Shown piece after piece: positions 19,810-46,000 of a stretch of 64,000 nt of DNA. The position numbers were made by a program, and so were the translations under genes. Location of the stretch: contig NC_058064.1 of assembly GCF_020085105.1 (NCBI RefSeq), positions 14,746,501-14,810,500 on the forward strand, given 5' to 3'. The notes beneath the pieces are model-generated. The model searched no databases, was not told the origin of the DNA, and worked only from the letters and a program-made list of their open reading frames with translations. The DNA is from Siniperca chuatsi. Taxonomy: Eukaryota; Chordata; Actinopteri; Centrarchiformes; Sinipercidae. Positions within the stretch are counted from its first letter, which is position 1, and each line of letters begins with the position of its first letter.

Positions 19810-22800
19810 TCAAAGCTCCCCATGTGGACTTGTGGTCGTCTCGGATGCTCCAGACCCCTCCACTTTTTCTGATGAGAATGGACGCATGAATAAATAAATA
19901 ATAATAATAATAATCATAATCATCATCATCATCATCATCATCTAATATATTCACTTTTAGTATTGCTAATATTGTTGTGAAAAGTAATGGAGTACAGCAA
20001 AATTTCAGCCATTGCCTATGTATTTTTAAAATTATGCAATTTACTTTCAACTTGTTTCATAGGCTGTATCTGTAAACTCTGTAGAGGACAATGTCAACTT
20101 TCTGTTCAAGAAATATATATAACTACAGTATCTTTTCACTACTGTGATAAAAAAGGCAACTGCTAATATACACAACAGTTTTATAAAATCTGTTGAGCAC
20201 AAATCATACAAAACCAGTGCTTAAACAAACACTAATCCTCACCTGGCTGCAGCGTTTGGACACACTCGCCATCTTGCTCCTCGTAGCCACTCGAGCAGAT
20301 GCACTCATAGCTGCCTTTAGTGTTGACACACTCCCGGTGCTGCTCAGTGCATACTGGCTCTGGCTGGGAACACTCGTCGATATCTGAAAAACACAATGCA
20401 ACACTGATCTTCTGTCTTCTGATGTTTTCAGACAGAACGGTTTCATCACCAGTAAGTGGTAATATGTACAAAGTCAATGTAATAACAATTATAAAAAGGA
20501 CTCAGTCATAGGAAAGGCAGAGATACCTTCCTTTGACCACACAGTGTAAAATCACCAACAGGATACGGTAAGAAGGGGGACTGAATGTACAATCAAAATC
20601 TTACTATGCTAATGACACAAGTTCAAGCTTAAAGATTAAACAGAATCTGGTGATATTCTACATTTTTCTTACTCTCAACAAATCCTATAAATTCAAAAAA
20701 AGACCAAAACTGACTGACAATGTATTGATGCTACTAACAAGTGTTGTGTGTGTAGCCAAAGCCTGATGTATCTTATTCCTCAGAGCTACATTTTTTTTTC
20801 CAAAGACTATTAAAAAACCCATCAGTGAGTAACACCGTTGCACTGGGTGACATGTTCCTTCATTATGATGAACACCAGGAGTGCAGTTTATTTTGGTTCG
20901 ATCACATGTACTGTCCTGGTGCCTTAAATACTCACTTAAATGTAGAAATCAATCAATCTGCAGCTGAAAATAGTCCCCCCAAAAAGCGCTGTGTACTATT
21001 GTTTGAGTAACGTTTGCTAAAAACTACACTGCCCTGCTGCTCCCCCCCCCTAAATGAATACAACTATATATGTGTGACCTGTTTTATAGCCTTTCATCAT
21101 CAGTAGGAACAAATGGGTTTGGGTCTAAAAGCCACAGATAGGCTGTACAGTGCTGAGAGATGCATTAACACATATTTTCATGGCATTTGTTGACAATAAG
21201 AAAGATACTGAATATGTAAAAATGTATCTAATATATATATCTAAAAATGTCAGACTTTTAGACTGTTCATTCTCCAAAACATAAGTTGTTAATATAACAT
21301 TTAAGTAATTAATAATTAATAGTAATTAATGTAACGTTTTTCAACATTCTTTTTAAGGAATTGTGTGTACCAATGCAGATTTACTCAAGAAAGAATCCCA
21401 GTGCATGCAACAATCTTTTGTCCTCTACCTACAAAAAAAAAAAAAAAAAAAAAAAGAGCCTTGACCCTTGGCTATGCACAACAGCATAAAAGGAGTGAAA
21501 CCTTTCAAATAGGAAATTATTTACATCATACCTGTGCAGATGCCCTCTGTGTCTTGGTACCCGCTGGCACAAGCCTGGCACTTATCTGGACCGTCTCCAG
21601 TGCAGCCGGAGCACACTTTGTCACAGGCTGTAAAGGACAAACACACAAAACAACTTTCTATTAGATGAATCTCACTAAAAAATATATTTAAATGAAGAGG
21701 GAAATTATTTTCCTGTTTGACAGCTGTAAATTTGTGAAATATGATGCATTTTGAAATAGTTCATGGCCCCATTAGTCATGAGACTTGTTCAGCATACCAA
21801 AGTAACCAAATTTACAAATTACAAATTTTAAAAGCAACATTGGAATTGGGTATTTTATACTGTATATGACAGTAGAAATACACATTACACTATTGGTAAT
21901 TTCATTATACCTACTGTTGTGTCCTTACAAACCACAATGTTGTGCAAAAATAAAAATAAAAAAAAGTGATAAGTTGACACCTATGGCATATGTCCTCTTA
22001 CCCTTGCAGGAGTAGGAGCCTTCTGTGTTGAGGCAGTATTCATCTTCTTTACATGGAGAGGAGTCATTGGAGCACTCGTTTACATCTGTAACACATCAGA
22101 TGGACTAGAGTGAGGTTAAGTGTGCTCAGAGCATAATGTCCTTTACATTCTTTATGCCTTTTACCACATCAGAACGAAAACTACCAAGCGTCAAACGTGG
22201 CAGTCAGATAAGGGATCAGTCAGGGATCACGCAGTATTTATGTTCTTTGATACTGAACTGTGCGCATGTGTGAAGTCTGGAGACTAACAGGCACTAGTCT
22301 CCAGACACTCAAACTACTTCATGGAGACTTTTTACTGGTCCTCTTACCAACACAAGCTTCCTGGTCATCCTCCTCCCAGCCTTCCTTGCACTCATCACAA
22401 TCCTGATTGGTGGCTCCGGTGCAGGTTTTGCAGGAGGAGTGGCACTCTGTAGGAGAAAGAGAAGCCCGAATCCAGAATCACGACAGATTATTTACCACTC
22501 ACTCCTCCCCCCACCCCTTGCGTATATACAAAGGTGAGTGACGTGTCACCGAAAAACAGCAGCTGCTTGTTCCGTTTATGGGTGTTTAAGTGTACCTGTG
22601 CACAGAGAGAAAGTGTCGTTCCTCACTTCGTTGAAGTAGCCGTCGATGCAGTCCAGGCAGAACTCCCCTTTGTAACCGTGGTCACAGCTGCACTTTCCGT
22701 TCCCTCCACGAGTCCCGTCGCCATCACACATTCCGTTTCCATGACAAGGTCTGTCAGAGCCCCCCACACAGGCTTCAGAAAGTAAAAATCAGAAAGAGAG

Positions 22801-24227
22801 CACAAAACACAAAAATATTTAACCACGTTTAATATCCGTGCTGCTGCCACAGGTTCTATTATTTGTTGAAAATACATTATTTTTTTAGCTACGGTATATG
22901 TAGCCTGCCAGACACAGAACCAACGTACACACTAAGAATTTTCCTCACCATTGCAGTCTGGTCCAAATGTTCCCTTTGGACAGCACACTTTGATGGTTTC
23001 AATGCAGAACCATTTATGTAGATCAGGGTGTTTTGTTTTCCTGCATTGCAACAGGAAACAAAACAGGAAGAGATGAGGTTTACCACATTCTGAAACAATC
23101 TTTTAAACACACAAATAACTCAGATGCAGATGATAGCTCTGTCAGTATGCCTAATCATAATGGCAGGGCATCAATCTGCCTGTCTCTAACAGTTAAAAAC
23201 CAACCAAACTTGCCAATGTGGTTGACAGGTTAAACTTTCAAAATATTTGCGTTAACCAACACCCACCTCTTGAACCACCAAGTTTCAAAATGGTCTTCGT
23301 GCTCCTCTAGCATGCGGTTGCACTCAAAGCTGCTGCTGTCACACAGCCCCTCCACGATCTCCATCAGACGAATCTCGCTGCAAAGGAAGCATGGGACAGA
23401 CATGAAACATCTAACAAGAAGAATGGATCGAAGTTGAATGAGGTAGGCAGTAGAAATGAGCATATGCCACCACATAAAGTGCGTGATAAAAAAGGAAGTG
23501 CCGCATGGAAGTTAGTTCAAGATTGCACATGTTTGTGTAAAATGCAGGAAAGCAAACTGTTACTTAAGGTAGGCCTTGCCAGAGTGGGAAATAAACACCC
23601 TTCACCTGCCAAATGCAGCAGTTTAAAACTTTGCTTATGCTACCAGCTACACTTGGGTACACGGATAGCTATAGATTCAAACACATATTGCTTATCTAAA
23701 ACTTTGATACGCTTAATGTGCCAAGTACAACAGCCTGCAGCTCTGGTGCAAAGCAAACACAGCTCTGATGACCGGTTCCTGTGGCAGGGTGACCTGTAGT
23801 TTGGACAGGACAGGATGCACTGTCTCACCTTGTCTCATATTTGGACAGTTTTCTCTCTTCCCAGGCTGTGTTGCCTCCGCCAAAGTTCTGCTTTGCTGTT
23901 CTGTCAAAGCCCTAAAATACAAAAGTAGTGCCATTGTTTGTGCAGAAAGAAACAGGCAAGGGTCTGGCAGACATTTCAGGCATTTGGCACCATTTAAGGT
24001 AGCAGGAAACATTCACAATATTAGAGCAAGACATCAATACAATGAAATACAACATAAAAGGTGAGGTTTAGAAATGTGCCCTTTACCTTGTTGAAGTTAT
24101 CAGTAATTTGCCGACAGGTAGAACAGGCGCTTGAATCCCTCTTGGCGCCGGTGACTTGAAAAAGTAAAACAAGAGTTACACAAGACAATAGCCGCAGTAG
24201 CCGCAGCTCTGGACCGGTGGACAGCAT
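19810..24227 (-). CDS. creld2: Cysteine-rich with EGF-like domains protein 2
   Basis: An ER-resident, stress-induced folding factor. Ten exons rebuilt from GT-AG sites (minus strand order): 24227-24087, 23911-23829, 23377-23267, 23040-22949, 22772-22596, 22446-22348, 22085-22002, 21627-21532, 20383-20243, 19868-19810. The phases close to 360 residues (human about 353). A signal peptide spans about residues 1-27 and a CxxC motif (CSTC) residues 35-38. The CRELD-specific region (GGGNTAWEE, then SEIRL.EI.EGLC) follows. Then come an EGF-like/laminin-type cysteine module, furin-like repeats and two calcium-binding EGF modules (DVNEC, DIDEC). The protein ends HGEL, an ER-retrieval-like tail where mammals have an EDL-type end. 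The start is the first ATG of a frame opening with a hydrophobic signal. It is head-to-head with alg12 through an ERSE promoter, and no disabling change is seen. Confidence 0.95.
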
Positions 24228-24510
24228 CTCAGCCGATCAATTCAGACAGTTTCATATCAGGACAAACGCTTCAGCCACTAGCAAGCAAGCTTTCAACCAA
24301 TATTAAAGTGCTGCACGGTTCGGACACATCTACATGAGCAGTTTTTAACATTAAATCTGAGTTAGCGTTATCTATGCAAAGCGCAACAAAGTAGTATTTA
24401 CATGCCGGGTGTAGAAAAAAAACGGATGCGTTTTTAGATTTCCGCGTCAGCCTCTGGTCGATTGTGGCTTGCGCTGATTTGCTGGGATTGCCTGTCAATC
24501 AAATGTACAA

Positions 24511-24752: not shown

Positions 24753-27700
24753 ATGGCTGAAAAGAGGGATGTTATGGGGCTGCCACTGCTACTTTTATTA
24801 ATATCTGTGGCTCTCTTGCATTTATTAATATGCCCGTTTACTAAAGTTGAGGAGAGCTTTAATTTACAAGCGGTGCACGATATTCTGTATCACAGACTTA
24901 ACTTTGACAAGGTAAGCAGGTGTTATAGATGCAGGTACTAACTAGATGTGCTAACAAGCTATGCTAACTATTCACAGCACCAGTGAATGAAATAATTGTC
25001 TTTCTTAAATCAAACATTTGTGAACACGTTCCAAAAACCATACAGACAAACACTTACATTAACACAGTTTGTATGTATTTTAGAGCTTCACAGTTTTATA
25101 GCCTTATCATTTGTAGAAGGGGGAAATGTGTTTGAATGTAAAATTCCATAGCAGTCCCAAAGAGAGTACAATGAATGACATGTACGGTTTTGGTTAATTT
25201 ATACTTAATGCAATACAAAGCCATGAGTAAGATTTAAAAAAAATACATATGAGGAAGCATTGTGAAGTCATAGAAATGAATGCTGAATTATTCCTGCTGA
25301 ACTTTAAAATGTAATCTTACTGCTTTCAAAAAACGTATGCTGCATCATTTCCATATTAGCTAAAAACGATACATTTTGTTTGAAACATAAATTAGTGACA
25401 ATTTTATTTGTATAGCCCCAAATCATACACTTCAGTGGTTTTACAGAACCATTAATATTAAGTCATATAATCATACCAAAAGAATTGAGAAAACAGTTGA
25501 CACAACAGTCTCAGCTCAAGATCCATTTAGAGCTTTTGATCATGATGAGTTTGCCCAATTGTCATGACAACATTTTTTTTTAAACATCTACAGGTCCTTG
25601 ACAACTGTGAAAACTCATTCTGCTGATGAAATCAGCATGTGATATGATTAAGAACTCCAGATCAGCCACTAAATGGACCTTGAGATGCAATTGTTTTTGT
25701 CAACTGCTGTTTCTAAGGTCAAAAATTAACTTTGCAACTCAAGTAAAAAACATTTTCTGTATTAAGGTCTGGCTTGTATTAGTGTTGTTGAGACCAGAGT
25801 GTGTCCTGTCTTTCAGTATGACCATCATGAGTTCCCTGGTGTGGTGCCACGGACTTTCCTTGGCCCCCTGTTTCTCTCCACGCTCTGCTCCCCCATTGTG
25901 TTTCTGTCCTCTCTGCTGGATGCACCGAAATTCTACACACAGCTGACAGGTAAATCGCTAATTGGTACTTTCCAATCCACTGATATGTTAAAAACAATGT
26001 TGCCTCTTTGGTTTAAACAAATGTGCTATCTTGCTGTGTCCTGTGCAGTCCGAGCTTCCCTGGGAGTGTGTGTTATCAGTGCACTGTGGCACATGCAGAG
26101 GGAGGTGAGGAGGCAATTTGGCTCCACAGTTGCAGGGCTCTTCTGTCTGATGTGTGCTTCTCAGTTTCACCTAATGTTCTATAGCACCAGGACGCTCCCT
26201 AATGTATTTGCACTGCCAATAGGTAAGATACATTGGTAAAAATCATCATAATCCAGAGACTCTGGATTAACCTTTTTATTTTCCTGTTTTCCTGAATTAG
26301 TGAGTAAATCTACAAGTGACATGATGACAGTACATTTTTCTTCCCAGTTCTGGTAGCATTCACATCTTGGATGGCTCAGGAACACGGCCGGTTCGTCAGC
26401 CTCTCTGCTTTGGTCATCATTGTGTTCCGGTCGGAGCTCTGCATCTTCTTGGGTCTCATGTTACTAATATCACTGCTGAGCAGGAGGCTGGGACTGCTGC
26501 AGCTGCTTTACTATGCCGTTCCTGCTGGGATCTTATCACTGGGTGAGTAGTAAATGTACAGTATATGAAAAGTACATACTCAATAAACAGTAAATTGCCC
26601 CTGCTGTCCAAACAGATTTTAACTTCCTTTGTCTTTTACAGCTCTGACAGTGGCCATTGACACCTTCTTTTGGGGGAAGTTTTTGTGGCCTGAAGGTCAG
26701 GTTTTGTGGTACAACACTATTCTCAACAAAAGTTCCAACTGGGGAATATCCTTTCATTTACTTGAGTACACTCCCACTTATGTTTAGCTATCACTTGTGC
26801 ATTCACTTGAACTTTTTGTTAATTTCAAGGATGAGCTCCACCTTCCCAGTTCTCCTTGACTCTCTTCTCCCCAGTAAACCTCCCCCTTTCTGTGGTATTT
26901 TTACTCTGCTGTGCCCCGCGCCCTGGGCTGCACGCTGCTCTTCGTCCCCCTCGGCCTCCTTGACAGGCGGATGAGGCTGCTGCTGCTACCCACCGTGGGC
27001 TTCATCCTCATCTACTCGCTGCTGCCCCACAAGGAGATGCGCTTCATCATATACACTTTCCCTATGCTCAGCTTGGTGGCTGCCCGAGGCTGTTCTTTCA
27101 TGTAAGTGAAAACATATTACCCTAATGCTTACATTCAAAAATACAGGGCAGGAAATTTACATTTTATCAACCAACAAGAGTGTCCGATGGACTCCAACAC
27201 AAACCAGACATTTATTGCTTTGTAAGCCAGATATGACCTATAGAGTACAGAAATCCTTTGGAAGGTGAGACAGTTGACTTGGCTGGTGGATGTTGATTAT
27301 TTCGTGCTCTTAAAATAGATACAAAGCAGCTATTCTCCAGATATTGATATCAGTGCCATCAAAAGAAAGACATCCTGTGTCAACAGTGTGGCAGGATACC
27401 AGTGTCTGACATTAGCTGCTCTTTTATATGAGACACTGCAAAAGCTCACTCTCTTCTTCCTTTGTACTTTAGTTTGTGCAACTACCAGAAATCCTGGATG
27501 TATAAACTGGGCTCTGCGGTCGTGGTTGGCCAGCTGTTGACCAATGCTGCGTACTCTAGTATTTGTCTCTACGTTTCCCACCACAACTACCCAGGCGGCC
27601 GAGGAATGCAGGAACTACACAGGCTGTTACCAGTCACAGCAGGTTGGAATCACTTTGAGCACGTTTTTATTTGTGGAGAGTTTACAAGAAATAGTCTTAT

Positions 27701-28521
27701 ACAAGAAATCAGAAACACTATTAATCCTTGCCACTTTATAACACGAGCTAATAAGTCAATTAAGTCTTTTAATCATTGAAAATGTGGAAAAAACTTCAAA
27801 ATCATATGTGCTTGTAATGTGCAATTTAGGGGGTGCTTCTTAGATTGCCTTTTAATTTTCCTTGTTGTGCAATTATCTCAGCTAAACTAGACTGACTTTA
27901 TTTATTTGCACATGTATGCAAACCATGTTAGTATGATTAACTATATTAAATGTGCATAAGACAAAAGAATCTTGGCTTTTTTACTTTTTCAGTAATTATA
28001 CAAAATACTGTATACGAATATAATCCTTTTTTACATGCATAATAGGTTTGTTCAGAGAACACTGTTCTCACATTGTTACACAATGCCTTTGTCCCCTCAG
28101 ATGTCTTTGTTCATATTGACACCTATGCAGCTGAAACTGGAGTGTCTCGCTTCTTGGAGCAGAACAGAAAATGGAGGTTATTGTATTTTTCATTGTTTTG
28201 AACTAAACTTTGCCAAAAACAATGTACTCAATATTATCACTCTTGTAACGTTAAATTTTTATTTTTATTTTTTACAGATATGACAAACGTGAGGACCTGA
28301 ACCTAACAAATCCTGAGATCAAAATGTACTCGCACCTCCTGATGGAGGCTAACGTCACCAAGATAAAGCTACTCCAGGACACTCATCAGCCTCTGGCCTT
28401 CGTAGAGGGTTACAGCAACATTGCCTTCAACTTGTTTCAATTCCCTCCTGTCAGTGTGCGATTAGAGAGAAAAACCGTGCTAATGGAGAGAGGGACTGCA
28501 ACCGGGCAACAAAAAAAGTGA
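24753..28521 (+). CDS. alg12: Dol-P-Man:Man7GlcNAc2-PP-Dol alpha-1,6-mannosyltransferase
   Basis: An ER membrane GT22-family mannosyltransferase. It adds the eighth mannose (alpha-1,6) from dolichol-P-mannose to the lipid-linked N-glycan precursor. Exons: 24753-24911, 25817-25949, 26049-26222, 26348-26542, 26642-26745, 26878-27101, 27473-27642, 28101-28176, 28278-28521, closing to 492 residues (human 488). Visible family blocks are '[14 protein letters not shown]' just after the first membrane segment, '[12 protein letters not shown]', '[13 protein letters not shown]', '[13 protein letters not shown]', '[12 protein letters not shown]' and 'VSHHNYPGG'. Several leucine-rich membrane spans are seen. 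The intron between exons 5 and 6 has a U12-type AT donor (separate entry); all others are GT-AG. The start at MAEKRD is preferred to an in-frame ATG 54 bp upstream because it matches the family's N-terminal length and has a better Kozak context. Confidence 0.95.
25390..25535 (-). repeat. L2-type LINE tail fragment in alg12 intron 1
   Basis: 'caattttatttgtatagcccc...' is the minus-strand tail of a fish L2-like LINE. It is only the 3' terminus, with no coding sequence. The rest of the 905-bp intron is unremarkable. Confidence 0.45.
26746..26877 (+). other. alg12: U12-type (minor spliceosome) intron of alg12, AT-AA ends
   Basis: The intron opens with ATATCCTTTC, a full match to the U12-dependent AT-class 5' splice site. 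TCCTTGAC at 26853-26860, with branch A at 26859, fits the U12 branch-site consensus TCCTTRAC and lies 18 nt before the exon. The flanking exons read ...SSNWG and TSPFLWYFY..., the conserved ALG12 order, only if the next exon starts at ACC (26878). The intron then ends in AA. The nearest AG (26873-26874) would put an in-frame TAA in the message, and ending at AC (26879) would shift the frame. Length 132 bp. Confidence 0.8.
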
Positions 28522-29902: not shown

Positions 29903-32900
29903 TCAGTACTGAAAATAAATCAAAGGGAGGTTGACCTTGAGGAACACCAGACCCTCCATGTTTTCCAGTAAAGGCCTGGGCTGATTTAGGGCACAGTTGA
30001 CACTAGCTGTGCTGAACAGTGTCTCTGCTGGGACGATGCTGGGAGGGCAGCCCACGTAACGGGCAGCTACTTTGGCAAGATCAGGCCACAGGAACTTTTT
30101 CAGGTTCCAATAGTCGAGGGGGTCACAGCTTTGATCAAGTATGTCTTCCTCAAGGTACTCCAGCACTGCCAGCTCTGAGGACTTCGGCTTCTCCTCGTGT
30201 TTTATCTTTTGTCGGATGTCAGCCATTAGGGACCAGAGGTTGTCCTTGTTTGAGTGGGAGGTGTTGGATGAAACGGGGGCCTCATTGCAGCCATTGGGCA
30301 GCAGAGGCTTAACTGCCACTGAGGTAGAAGACGACAAGTCCAGCTCCCGGATTAGATCTTGTTTACATTGTTCAGCTTCTTCCTCTGTGAACAATGAAGT
30401 CTTGTATCGTGGGTCCAGCATGGTCGCCCAGGTGAATCGTGGGTCGTGCAGAGTTGCGGACATTCTGCTCACCATGGCTTCTTTTAGAGATTTGAGCATG
30501 TTGTCTATGCCCACAGTTTCATCAAACAGCAGGTCTATCTTTCTATTGAGGATGTGAATGAGTGGTATCACTTGTCCCAGAGTGGCAGTGCGGTTGCTCA
30601 TCTCCCTGTAGGCGACTTCGAAAGGTTTCATTGCATTGCAGACTGACAGCATCACCTCCCACTGATCGCAGCTGATCATTTCCCTGAAATTGCACTCGAT
30701 CGACATCTCGTCGATGGCTTTCTTCTGTTCCACCAGCCGCTCCAGCATGAAAAAGGAGGTCCTCCATTTGGAGGGAACATCCTGAATCAGTTGGTTCTCT
30801 GGCAGCTGGTGGGCCCTCTGGAGCTCAGCCAGCTTCTCCTTGGCTTTTGCTGAGCGGTGCACACGTTCACAGATCTTTCGTGCAATACTCAGAAGGTTCT
30901 GAACCATTCTCTGGCTCTTTATGGCTTCGCTAACAATGAGGTCTATAGTGTGTCCAAAACACTGCATGGTGACATGGCCACGGTCCTCCAAGGTGTTTCT
31001 GATGGTGTTGTTATCAGTTACAGTGAACCCCTTTTTCAGCCCCGATGAGGTGATCCAAGAATCCCACAGATACTCGAGCTGCTTTGGGATGTCATGCATA
31101 TTGTGATCACAGTCTATTTGTGAGACACTTAAGAGAGCGGAGCAGTGAAAGTCCTGACCCTGGGGTCTGACACTTGACTCGTACGTCGCCCAGTGGGCGG
31201 TAAGGGTCAGGTATTCCCTTGTCTGGCTACTGACCCAAATACTAGTTGTAAAATGGACAACACCACCTTCAGCCTCTTTCAGATGGGTCAGCACAACATC
31301 CTTCACCTTTTCGTACATATCTGGTATGGCAGTGCTGGTAAAGTAAGAAGAAGGTGGTAGAGAATACTGAGGCTGGAGGTACTCTAGTAGTCTGTTCAGT
31401 CCAGCATTCTCCACGATAGCTGATGGCTGAAGATCCAGTGCGAGCATTTCTGCAATAAGTTTGGTTATTTTTTTGGCAATCGGGTGGTGTTCATCAAACC
31501 TCTCACGGTTCTGTTCTGTTTCATAAACGGAAGTGTCCATGAGCTCTTGTTTAACGTGAATTTCAGCAGACGGCACATCACCTGAGATAGCTTTGTTACT
31601 TTCAAGAACATGTCCATGAAACCTCTGCATATGCCTAAAGAGGCAGCTTGTGCCGAGGTTTGTAGTCTTTTTGCCTCTGCTAATTGTGCGGCTACAGTGC
31701 AAACAAATCACCTTTGTGGGGTCAGCAGGTGAAATGGAGAAATGGTTCCACAGTTTTGACGTCTTTTTGCTGAAAACAGGCAGGGTTTGTGGCTTTTTCT
31801 CACTGGCAGGGCTCTCAGTTTCTTTGGTTGAAACTGCGTCTGTTGTGGTGAGATTGGTGTAGGGATGAGGGGAAGATTCCTTCTCATCTGTGCTTTTTTG
31901 GTTTTTGAGGACGTCTGGGTGGCGTCTCATAAGATGCCTCATCAGACAGCTTGTACCAAAGTCGCCCCGTTTCCCCCGACTGATGACGCATGGACAGTAA
32001 CGGCACAGTGCTTTTAACTGGTCAACTGGTGACACTATGAAATGGTGCCACACTTCAGATTTCACCCGTTTCATGATCTTCTTGTTTTGCTGGAAAACTG
32101 AATGATCCTGATTGAGGCTGGGGCCCTCTGAGAGGTCGCATGGTGAGGAAGTTAGGGGTGTATCCTCCCCTTGAGTTTTGAAGGAGAGATTGAGAGAGGA
32201 CTCCTGCCCTGACAGATGCATCATGTCATCAGATTCCTCTTTTATATCCATGCTTTCCTCCATGCTTTGGGGCAGTTCATCTGATATGGTTTCTGGTGAG
32301 GATGGAAGAAGGGGTGATTCTTTTTTTACTTCAAGTGGATCCTGTAGTTGTGTGCGGGACAACAGTGAGGGCGGGTTTGTATAGGGTGGGGGAATGTGAT
32401 TTCCCTGTCCATTTTCCTCAATGACAACCTCTTTGTGGGCCCTCCACATATGACGAATCAGACAGCTTGTCCCTAGATCCTTCCCATTTTTACCCCTACT
32501 GAATTCATTCATGCAATGGATACATACTGCTTTGGAATTGTCAGCAGGCGACAGGTAGAAGTGTTTCCATACAGCTGATCTTCGACGGGAACTCGAGCTT
32601 TTAGGGGTCCCAGAAAGGCGCTCGGGCCCTCCGTCTGACATGTCTTCAAGGTTGTTTTCATTGGAATGTGAGGATGACAGCGTGCTGCAAACAGTGTCAG
32701 TGTTGGCATACGGTTCTAGTTTTGGTTCGACTTTGGGTAACACTTCTTTGGATGACAGATCCGAGTTGTCAGCTGAGGAGGTGGACGGTGAAGTGTTCTT
32801 TGAGGCAGAAGAAATAACACTATTTGTCAAGTCTCCGTTTTTTGGTGAGTTTGGGGAGGGAGGTATCAAAGATGAGGCAGGAGAGCTAGTCAGATGATTG

Positions 32901-33685
32901 GAGGATGCATCTGCTCCATCTTGTAAAAGCACATTGGGGTGAGCCCTTCGTACGTGCCTCATTAAACAGCTTGTACTGAGGTCTTTCTCATTCTTACCCC
33001 GACTGAACTCTTTCATGCAGTATAAACAGATTGCTTTGGTACTGTCTCGTGGAGATATGCAGAAATGATTCCATGCAGGGGATTTTTTCCTTGGGTTGGT
33101 ATTACTCCTTATAGATGACAAAAGGCTCTGAGTGACAGCATCCATGGCAACATCATAAAGGGTGCTTGTGTATCCACTTAGTAAATTATTATATTCATCG
33201 CCATCTCTAGTTACAAAAGGGCCAATTGAGCTACCAAATGCTAGCCTTTCGTCATCCTGGATTTCCTCCTCGATCCCATTTGCATCCCCAGTCTCCTCTT
33301 TGATATGTTGACTTGCTTCATTACCATTTTCATACTGTTCATTCTCCGCATTCCCCTCAGTATCATTATTTGGGCATTTGTTTGAAAGAGTGGGAGAAGC
33401 TGGATCAGTCTCACTTGCTTGGTCTGACTCCAACTGTTTGTCACCCTGAGAAGATAAATCAAAAGAAGGGGGAGAGTCTTTATCCAGTGTTATTGAGGAA
33501 CAAGCAGGTGACTTTGCATTCGCAGTCTCATGAGGGTTAATGCTGTAGGATTTGAACACATAGCCATCCTGGCCCTCAATTTTCAAGCAAGTCCCTTTTG
33601 CCTCTCTTTTTTTACTTTCTATGGAGCCATTAGGTTCACTGACCATATCCTCACTCATGTGAGAGACCTCCTCTTCCCCATCCAT
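29903..33685 (-). CDS. zbed4: Zinc finger BED domain-containing protein 4 (domesticated hAT transposase)
   Basis: A nuclear DNA-binding protein derived from a hAT transposase. One uninterrupted coding exon of 1260 codons (human ZBED4 is 1171). Four BED fingers lie at about residues 203-250, 370-418, 543-590 and 644-691. Each has the W-x-HF...SP start, a CxxC pair and the SRGK..., TSCL..H(x)4-5H end. They are separated by long Ser/Pro/Glu-rich linkers containing SUMO-type VKxE/IKEE motifs. The transposase-derived region follows ('GFTVTDNN', 'CFGHTIDLIV', 'DVPSKWRTSFFML', 'ATMLDPRYK'). The C-terminal hATC dimerisation domain is at about 1186-1258 ('DPLDYW', 'PPSIVPAETLFSTA'). The ATG is in good Kozak context (gccATGg). 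A CTACAG acceptor 20 bp upstream and a second at about 33882 show that the 5' UTR is spliced. Confidence 0.95.
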   Translation of the reverse strand: MDGEEEVSHMSEDMVSEPNGSIESKKREAKGTCLKIEGQDGYVFKSYSINPHETANAKSPACSSITLDKDSPPSFDLSSQGDKQLESDQASETDPASPTLSNKCPNNDTEGNAENEQYENGNEASQHIKEETGDANGIEEEIQDDERLAFGSSIGPFVTRDGDEYNNLLSGYTSTLYDVAMDAVTQSLLSSIRSNTNPRKKSPAWNHFCISPRDSTKAICLYCMKEFSRGKNEKDLSTSCLMRHVRRAHPNVLLQDGADASSNHLTSSPASSLIPPSPNSPKNGDLTNSVISSASKNTSPSTSSADNSDLSSKEVLPKVEPKLEPYANTDTVCSTLSSSHSNENNLEDMSDGGPERLSGTPKSSSSRRRSAVWKHFYLSPADNSKAVCIHCMNEFSRGKNGKDLGTSCLIRHMWRAHKEVVIEENGQGNHIPPPYTNPPSLLSRTQLQDPLEVKKESPLLPSSPETISDELPQSMEESMDIKEESDDMMHLSGQESSLNLSFKTQGEDTPLTSSPCDLSEGPSLNQDHSVFQQNKKIMKRVKSEVWHHFIVSPVDQLKALCRYCPCVISRGKRGDFGTSCLMRHLMRRHPDVLKNQKSTDEKESSPHPYTNLTTTDAVSTKETESPASEKKPQTLPVFSKKTSKLWNHFSISPADPTKVICLHCSRTISRGKKTTNLGTSCLFRHMQRFHGHVLESNKAISGDVPSAEIHVKQELMDTSVYETEQNRERFDEHHPIAKKITKLIAEMLALDLQPSAIVENAGLNRLLEYLQPQYSLPPSSYFTSTAIPDMYEKVKDVVLTHLKEAEGGVVHFTTSIWVSSQTREYLTLTAHWATYESSVRPQGQDFHCSALLSVSQIDCDHNMHDIPKQLEYLWDSWITSSGLKKGFTVTDNNTIRNTLEDRGHVTMQCFGHTIDLIVSEAIKSQRMVQNLLSIARKICERVHRSAKAKEKLAELQRAHQLPENQLIQDVPSKWRTSFFMLERLVEQKKAIDEMSIECNFREMISCDQWEVMLSVCNAMKPFEVAYREMSNRTATLGQVIPLIHILNRKIDLLFDETVGIDNMLKSLKEAMVSRMSATLHDPRFTWATMLDPRYKTSLFTEEEAEQCKQDLIRELDLSSSTSVAVKPLLPNGCNEAPVSSNTSHSNKDNLWSLMADIRQKIKHEEKPKSSELAVLEYLEEDILDQSCDPLDYWNLKKFLWPDLAKVAARYVGCPPSIVPAETLFSTASVNCALNQPRPLLENMEGLVFLKVNLPLIYFQY

Positions 33686-43000: not shown

Positions 43001-46000
43001 AAATGTTGCATTTCTTGCGGGATGATTTTGTTTTGTTGTCATGTGTATGTACTTTATCTCAGTCTATGGTACTGTTTACCGTTTATTGTGCTCAAATGTT
43101 GTATATTATAGCGTTGTAGCATATGGTGGGCTCATTGATGGAGCTCCACTATGGAAACACAGATAGTGCTGCAAAAAAAGCTGATTCTGGCCGTACCTTG
43201 TGCCCCATGTGCAAGTTCACATAATTTGTTGTTTGGCTCTCAGGCAATGAGTTGGAGAAGAAAATAACTGCAGCCATGATTAACTTTTTAAGAGGTGTAC
43301 AATCCGGCTTTAAACAAATACAAGGACCCACATAGCCGTCCTGAGACTTCCTGTTTGATAAGCCTTCAAACTGGACTTGCTGGTTCGTATTTCAACACAG
43401 CCCTTTGCATTTTGCCATTGTGCTACTGTCAGGATAAAAGCTGTTTTACCTGCCTGATTGTCAGATAACTGCTTCAGAAATGTTGAAATGATGGCATGAA
43501 TTATGATGCGTATTTCTATAGAAGTTATACAAACATTTACTTAATTTAAACTATTTTTGTGTTTTACCAAAGCAAATTGTACATGGGAATCCAGGGGAAG
43601 ACAACACAGAGTGTGATCTTGTTAGGTATCAAAGCATTGATATGAGTTTCCCTAATCTTTAAGAGCCCTGACACACTTACCCTTACAAAGGGAGAATAAT
43701 CACAGCCTTTGCTCGCCCTTATATCGCCACACATCTGTTAAACATTGCACTTGAACACACCACAAAGACTACAGCCAGCAGACAACTGCTCGCTCCACGG
43801 TTACACCCCCCACCCCCTCAACCCCACCCCCTCATGTAGACAGGGTTGAGCAATGTGACTTCTTAGTAAGTGAAAGATTAAGGTCCACTGGCTGACATCT
43901 GTAAAGAAGAATATGAATACTATGAGTACAATATGCTGCAAAACAATCTTATTTCAGGTTATAAATCAACATAGCATCTTAATCACCCCCCGTGTAGACA
44001 GTGTAGTGCAAAGTGCCTCTTATTAAGTGGAATGTGTAACTTGAGATTAAGGTCCACTGGCTGACATCTGTAAAAGGTGTAGGGTGTCTTGCTATGTTAG
44101 CCCGGCTAGCTCAGTCGGTAGAGCATGAGACTCTTAATCTCAGGGTCGTGGGTTCGAGCCCCACGTTGGGCGTAGTTTTTGATCACTAGTAGATTATTCA
44201 TTTTCTTCAAGTTTTAAGACTTTGTAACAATCTGGAAAAATATGGAATAGTATTGATGTTTATATACAGTCTTTTTAAATGTTATTGTCATGTAAAAGAC
44301 GATATGCCCCAACAGATTAATAGTCTACTTCACAGTCATGTTGCCCGGCCACTGCTGACATGAATGACTTTAGATACTGTATCTAAAGTAATCATATGTG
44401 GTCAAGAATGTTGGGTTAACATAAATGATATTTGCTTCATATTTTTAAAAATGGTCTAAGTAATTTTAAAATAATTCATTATATTTGCTGTTTCCTGTAG
44501 GTGCCTGACTACCTCGACCACATCAGACACCCAATGGACTTCTCCACCATGCGGCAGCGCATCGATGCACAGGGCTATAACAACTTGGAGCAGTTTGAGT
44601 ATGACTTCAACCTCATTATTGATAATTGCATGAAATACAACTCAAAGGACACCTATTTCCACCGGGCTGCCGTTCGCCTCCGAGACCAGGGCGGGGCCCT
44701 GCTTCGAAAGGCCCGGCGAGATGTGGAGAAAATCGGCTTTGACACGGAAAGCGGCATGCATCTGGCCGAAGCTCCTGAAATCAAAGCACCGCCATCCTTT
44801 TCTTGGGAGGACGGTAAGGGCAGTAGCAAAGACACATGCCTCTGTGATGTGTTTGCATCAGAGCAAGTCAATGAGAAATATTCATGAGATGTGTTGAGCA
44901 AAACATGTTTCAATTTCCTACTGATTAATTGATTCTCTCCTTAGTGGACCGCCTACTAGTGCCAGCCAATCGGGAACATCTGTCTCAGGACAAGCAGCTG
45001 CAGCAGCTGCTGGAGAAATTTGACCTGACCTGTGCCATGAAGTCCAGCCCCTCCCGCAGCAAGCGCCTAAAGCTGCTCAAAAAGACCATCAACGATGTGC
45101 GCAATGAAATGAGCCTAAAGAGAGTCCTACCCTCCGACCCCCACTGTTCTTCCTCCACAACTCCCTCCACATCAGCATCATCTTCATCAGCTGCCTTCCA
45201 CCCAGAGCTGGGTAAACCTAAAGAAGAGAGATTGAAGCCCAATGGACTTTTTTCAGATGATGAGGGTATGTGTGGTGTGCAGGTCAGACCCCAGGGATTA
45301 GCCCCCAACCCAAAACATAGCCTCATAGAGCAAAGTCACATGCTGTTCCCCATTACCTAGTGTGTCTACAACATGGTAGTATTGTCATCTTTGCTGCTTT
45401 CAGTACTATAACACTAGCCTGGTTCCAGACCTCTGACTTGCCTCCCACTTTTCAGATTTTTTTAGTGATTCGAAGAGAACAAAATGGTGATTAAGTCTGA
45501 TTATCAGGCTACTATAACACGTAATCATTATAAACCCTGCCCTGTTTGTGTTGAGGTGAGGTCTGTCTGCTGTGTAGGGGAAATTTGCTAAAAACAATAC
45601 ACATGTTCCTGGTATTTGGGAAAGCAGAGCCTATTGACCATTAAACCTTAATTTCACAAAACTAGAATCAAGAAAGCCAAAACCATCTTAGTTATGTCAT
45701 TAACTGATAAAACCATTGCGTGTTAATAGGATTATTAGTGCTAATATTATTTGTTAATGTCTAATAGCATTTTTCAGTGATATTGGCAGATACAAAGTTC
45801 ATTGCCGGTGGAGCACCTGCAGGTTTTGTGTCCAAATGGTATCATAGATTTAAGTCTGATTCACTGGGTTCTAACTGTGAGAGAGAGAGTTGTTAAAAAA
45901 AAAAATAATTAAACAAGAAAACTCAGAACTCCTCCTAGGTCATTCTATATAACAGATTGTTAAATCAAAAGGCTTACTGGCACGCAAAACCTTTTTTTGA

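Follow-up and report, generated by a model that had tools for sequence, protein, structure and literature searches.

Results

The alg12 gene and its neighbours

In the window, the whole 64-kb stretch of DNA that was analyzed, the alg12 coding region lies on the + strand at 24753..28521. Its 9 exons, whose ends we picked by eye with the open reading frame as a check, form a full open frame encoding a Glyco_transf_22 mannosyltransferase of 492 aa. The product shows what is looked for in an ALG12 mannosyltransferase: a full-length protein match, to PDB chain 9s6t_A ('Mannosyltransferase'; residues 1-483, E 2.2e-204), and a Pfam Glyco_transf_22 domain (PF03901, E 6.8e-47). At E 0.001 the second match of the product was the ALG9 chain 9s6s_A (8e-05), and there was no third. 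Given that the ALG9 chain scores far lower, 9s6t_A would be ALG12, and we use it as such below. Seven of the eight alg12 introns are GT-AG introns without a U12 donor; the exception is intron 5, the subject of this analysis.

Two protein-coding neighbours flank alg12, both on the - strand. A 1260-aa frame at 29903-33685 adjoins it and contains four BED zinc-finger stretches together with a hAT dimerisation domain; we take this gene to be zbed4-like. On the other side, exon fragments at about 20240-24240, presumably of a creld2-like gene, stand head to head with alg12, with 525 bases between the presumed start codons, and a reading joined by hand from these fragments contains EGF_CA and DUF3456. 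The order of these neighbours around alg12 is presumably that of human chromosome 22. A scan of the window with Rfam at gathering thresholds gave one match, a tRNA; the tRNA-Lys (CTT) gene lies at 44100-44172 on the + strand.

U12-type signals of intron 5

U12-type introns begin at the exon end with the donor consensus RTATCCTTT and carry, near the 3′ end, a branch site close to the consensus TTCCTTRAY. Intron 5 (26746..26877, + strand, 132 nt, with inferred AT-AA ends) separates exon 5 (26642..26745), which ends AAC TGG GGA (N W G) in phase 0, from exon 6 (26878..27101), which starts ACC TCC CCC TTT (T S P F). Its terminal sequences are ATATCCTTTC at the start and CCCCAGTAA at the end. The preliminary description of this DNA had named the donor a minor-spliceosome AT-class site, and ATATCCTTTC is indeed found at 26746..26755, in agreement with RTATCCTTT. 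It had also placed a branch site 18 nt before the exon: the U12-like element TCCTTGAC, which follows the pattern TCCTTRAY, occupies 26853..26860, with the presumed branch A at 26859 and 18 nt from there to the exon. Read against the longer consensus, CTCCTTGAC, ending at 26860, agrees with TTCCTTRAY at 8 of 9 bases, counted by eye.

Neither motif is unusual by itself, since RTATCCTTT occurs twice across the 64-kb window against 1.35 expected, and TCCTTRAY nine times against 10.89 expected. With motifs this frequent, the evidence lies in where they sit relative to the junction that the protein fixes. We therefore evaluated this position with 20,000 dinucleotide shuffles of intron 5 plus 10 nt on either side, accepting a donor start from -2 to +3 of the junction and a branch site that falls entirely between 7 and 38 nt upstream of the exon. 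The donor was reproduced at its protein-fixed position in 4 shuffles and the branch site in 178, while both together appeared in none of the 20,000. Within the gene, intron 1 also contains TCCTTGAC, but 215 nt from the intron end, and intron 5 is the only one of the 8 alg12 introns with both signals in place. Intron 5 is thus, as judged from these sequence signals, very probably a U12-type intron. The earlier claim of a U12-type AT-AA intron stands well as to class, through the donor, the branch site and the place in the protein; its AA end is the best reading, drawn from the protein only.

Choice of the 3′ end

The 3′ end of intron 5 offers three dinucleotides in close succession: a competing AG at 26873..26874, the inferred terminal AA at 26876..26877 and an AC at 26878..26879, respectively 15, 18 and 20 nt past the branch A. 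The AG closes a CCCAG ending at 26874, and TAA follows directly (26875-26877), so that use of this AG puts the TAA in frame; indeed, an exon beginning at 26875 or earlier always runs into it in the proper exon 6 frame. With the donor fixed at 26746, the AA end gives the full 492 residues, and the junction protein NKSSNWG-TSPF (split after the glycine) is identical to 9s6t_A there. With AG 26874 the same donor yields 255 residues and then immediately the in-frame TAA that the preliminary description had noted for the nearest AG; with AC 26879 it yields a frame shift and a stop after 282 residues. Two further forms were rejected: the AG at 26849, again with the donor at 26746, shifts the frame and leads to a stop after 292 residues, and retention of intron 5 as a coding form ends after 268.

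To compare donors and acceptors without fixing either, we scanned 18,395 pairs, with the last exon base at 26690-26829 and the first exon base at 26800 to 26959, at least 60 nt further on; these yielded 2,016 distinct open mRNAs. Pairs were ranked by the alignment score of residues 201-310 against a 102-residue stretch of 9s6t_A. None of the 395 AG-ended pairs was open with any donor, the acceptor range scanned (to exon start 26959) containing only four AG. When the ends were canonical or a mix of canonical ones, the open pairs comprised 4 AT-AC and 8 GT-AC; GT-AG, GC-AG and AT-AG gave none. The top score among all 18,395 pairs, 395, belonged to the AT-AA mRNA, and the best canonical-ended pair, AT-AC 26748-26879, reached 389. 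The statement that only an AA-ending intron keeps the reading was therefore too strong: it is right for AG, which leaves no open pair in the range scanned, but the shifted AT-AC pair is open, at the cost of changing Thr to Ile.

The AT-AA mRNA can be cut in more than one register: AA-TA (26745-26876), AT-AA (26746-26877) and TA-AA (26747-26878) all give the same product. Because this mRNA is identical, cDNA is unable to separate the three, and the AT-AA register is preferred because it fits the U12 donor. Taking these results together, we consider it likely that intron 5 is spliced as AT-AA, at 26746/26877, within an A-class (AT-AN) U12-type intron, and the reading frame points to AA as the main end, over the AG or the shifted AC.

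Predicted folding around the branch site

A hairpin is predicted over the branch site at 26825..26859 on the + strand (-12.9 kcal/mol), in which TCAAGGA pairs with the branch-site bases TCCTTGA, leaving seven of the eight branch-site bases paired. Only 2 of 200 shuffles were as stable (z -3.34), for a region chosen post hoc from the whole-intron fold; intron 5 folded as a whole is unremarkable (z -1.38, 19 of 200 shuffles). Across the alg12 introns, 12 of 1,922 windows of 46 nt are as stable as the branch-site hairpin, itself counted. Among the best 10 of these 12, eight are the hairpin itself (starts 26815-26822), and the two others, in intron 1, are more stable. When 26700-26930 is folded, the first seven branch-site bases have unpaired probabilities of 0 to 0.14, the two bases of the AG 0.01 and 0.03, and those of the AA 0.52 and 0.32. 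Folded alone, 26850-26910 does no better than its shuffles (z -0.29, 66 of 200). The predicted hairpin might leave the branch site harder to reach; it bears on accessibility only, and we give it little weight.

Alternative readings of the junction

The points that speak against AT-AA are the predicted hairpin over the branch site, the open AT-AC pair and the spacing: the part of the review PMC3584512 on this last matter gives 11-13 nt as the optimum from branch site to 3′ end in U12-type introns, and the distance of 18 nt exceeds it, with an AG nearer at 15. All three candidate distances (18 nt for AA, 15 for AG and 20 for AC) are short and fall outside that optimum. Use of AG 26874 to a real extent beside AA, with the TAA presumably leading to mRNA decay and the pair of ends forming a productive/unproductive switch, gains from this nearness, and AT-AG minor introns are on record in the sections of PMC8280824 and PMC4176328 that treat them. 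As a sole form it would destroy the reading, however, and the portion of PMC3584512 concerned describes AT-AG combinations as disfavoured. The AG is also paired in the single-sequence fold, which is weak evidence because the local region shows no more stability than shuffled sequence (z -0.29, 66 of 200). We regard such use of the AG beside AA as rather unlikely. Decidedly improbable is the more specific proposal that the tandem end CAG-TAA-ACC and the branch-site hairpin together make up a switch, in which AA would give ALG12 protein and AG a stop codon at the junction; if it were true, alg12 output would report the state or fidelity of the minor spliceosome.

Could the intron instead be an ordinary AT-AC intron? 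The preliminary description had dismissed AC as breaking the frame, which is correct for the donor at 26746 but not for the donor at 26748, the best in-frame partner of this AC: the intron 26748-26879, with its donor moved 2 nt, is open and reads SSNWG-I-SPF. It is the best-scoring open pair with canonical ends, and the part of PMC4176328 on this point states that introns with A as first base splice to any last base, with AC preferred. Against it, its donor ATCCTTTCA is 2 nt off the ATATCCTTT register, its branch distance rises to 20 nt, and it drops the Thr that 9s6t_A shares with the ALG9 chain 9s6s_A, which carries Gly-Thr at the place of the exon 5/6 junction, two homologues being few. On account of the 2-nt displacement from the donor consensus and the missing Thr, we rate this shifted intron as very improbable. 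An AT-AC intron in the same place as the AT-AA one would also result if a sequence or assembly error beside the acceptor masked it. From the sequence, a single base difference would suffice to give the canonical AC, and five consecutive C follow shortly after the acceptor (26882-26886). The coding sequence is intact on both sides, with 492 codons, but this is weak evidence against an error, because an error at the intron end is invisible in the coding frame; on balance we think such an error quite unlikely. Finally, an intron of the major spliceosome (U2-type) at this place has in its favour the C/T-rich stretch upstream of CCCAG at 26874. It was rejected for want of an open AG-ended pair in the scanned range (0/395, to exon start 26959), it leaves the U12 signals unexplained, and it is exceedingly unlikely.

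Discussion

The results indicate that AT-AA remains the preferred reading of intron 5, which sets it apart from the GT-AG U2-type introns: the seven other alg12 introns are GT-AG, and intron 5 is without an open AG-ended reading in the range scanned. In U12-type introns the U11/U12 di-snRNP recognises donor and branch site together, U6atac then takes the donor, and the intron is cut at its 3′ end a little downstream of the branch A. For intron 5, the donor and the branch site would be bound jointly by the U11/U12 di-snRNP, U6atac would replace it at the donor site, and cleavage at the 3′ end would follow shortly downstream of branch A 26859, at AA. On this sequence evidence, intron 5 would be removed by the minor spliceosome.

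Such an intron has a place among those already described. It shares with the AT-AA subtype of U12-type AT-AN introns the donor ATATCCTTT, a branch site TCCTTRAC near the 3′ end, the AT start and the AA end; unlike AT-AN introns in general, it has a distance of 18 nt where 11-13 nt is the optimum, and the nearer AG is apparently skipped. The preliminary description had called AT-AA minor introns rare, and this is right, although AT-AA is the commonest of the non-canonical endings, which occur in ~3.8% of orthologous minor introns in animals according to the relevant part of PMC10639083. In the portion of PMC8280824 devoted to the A-type set, which includes AT-AA, 92% of the introns are affected by CENATAC depletion. 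The alg12 intron 5 is probably a further case of this known type.

The human gene provides a second comparison, one that speaks for the minor class of intron 5. In the section of PMC4667643 that deals with human ALG12, retention of the minor intron in Roifman syndrome is 38.5% in affected and 8.0% in unaffected individuals; the likeness to intron 5 is that of the same gene and the minor class, and it stands at the gene level only. A literature search including full text found no published ends of the alg12 minor intron; U12DB and IAOD, outside the scope of that search, may well list them. Related DNA was also sought in two collections without animal genomes, viral_contigs (27 pattern matches) and genome_contigs (99 pattern matches), and none of these matches was confirmed, as expected because the collections lack animal genomes.

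The known picture of minor introns is unchanged by intron 5. It seems to offer a natural example of the minor spliceosome skipping a nearer AG in favour of AA, and it is therefore a possible test of last-base choice in AT introns. Gene predictors that accept no intron ends other than GT-AG or AT-AC may get the alg12 model wrong at this junction.
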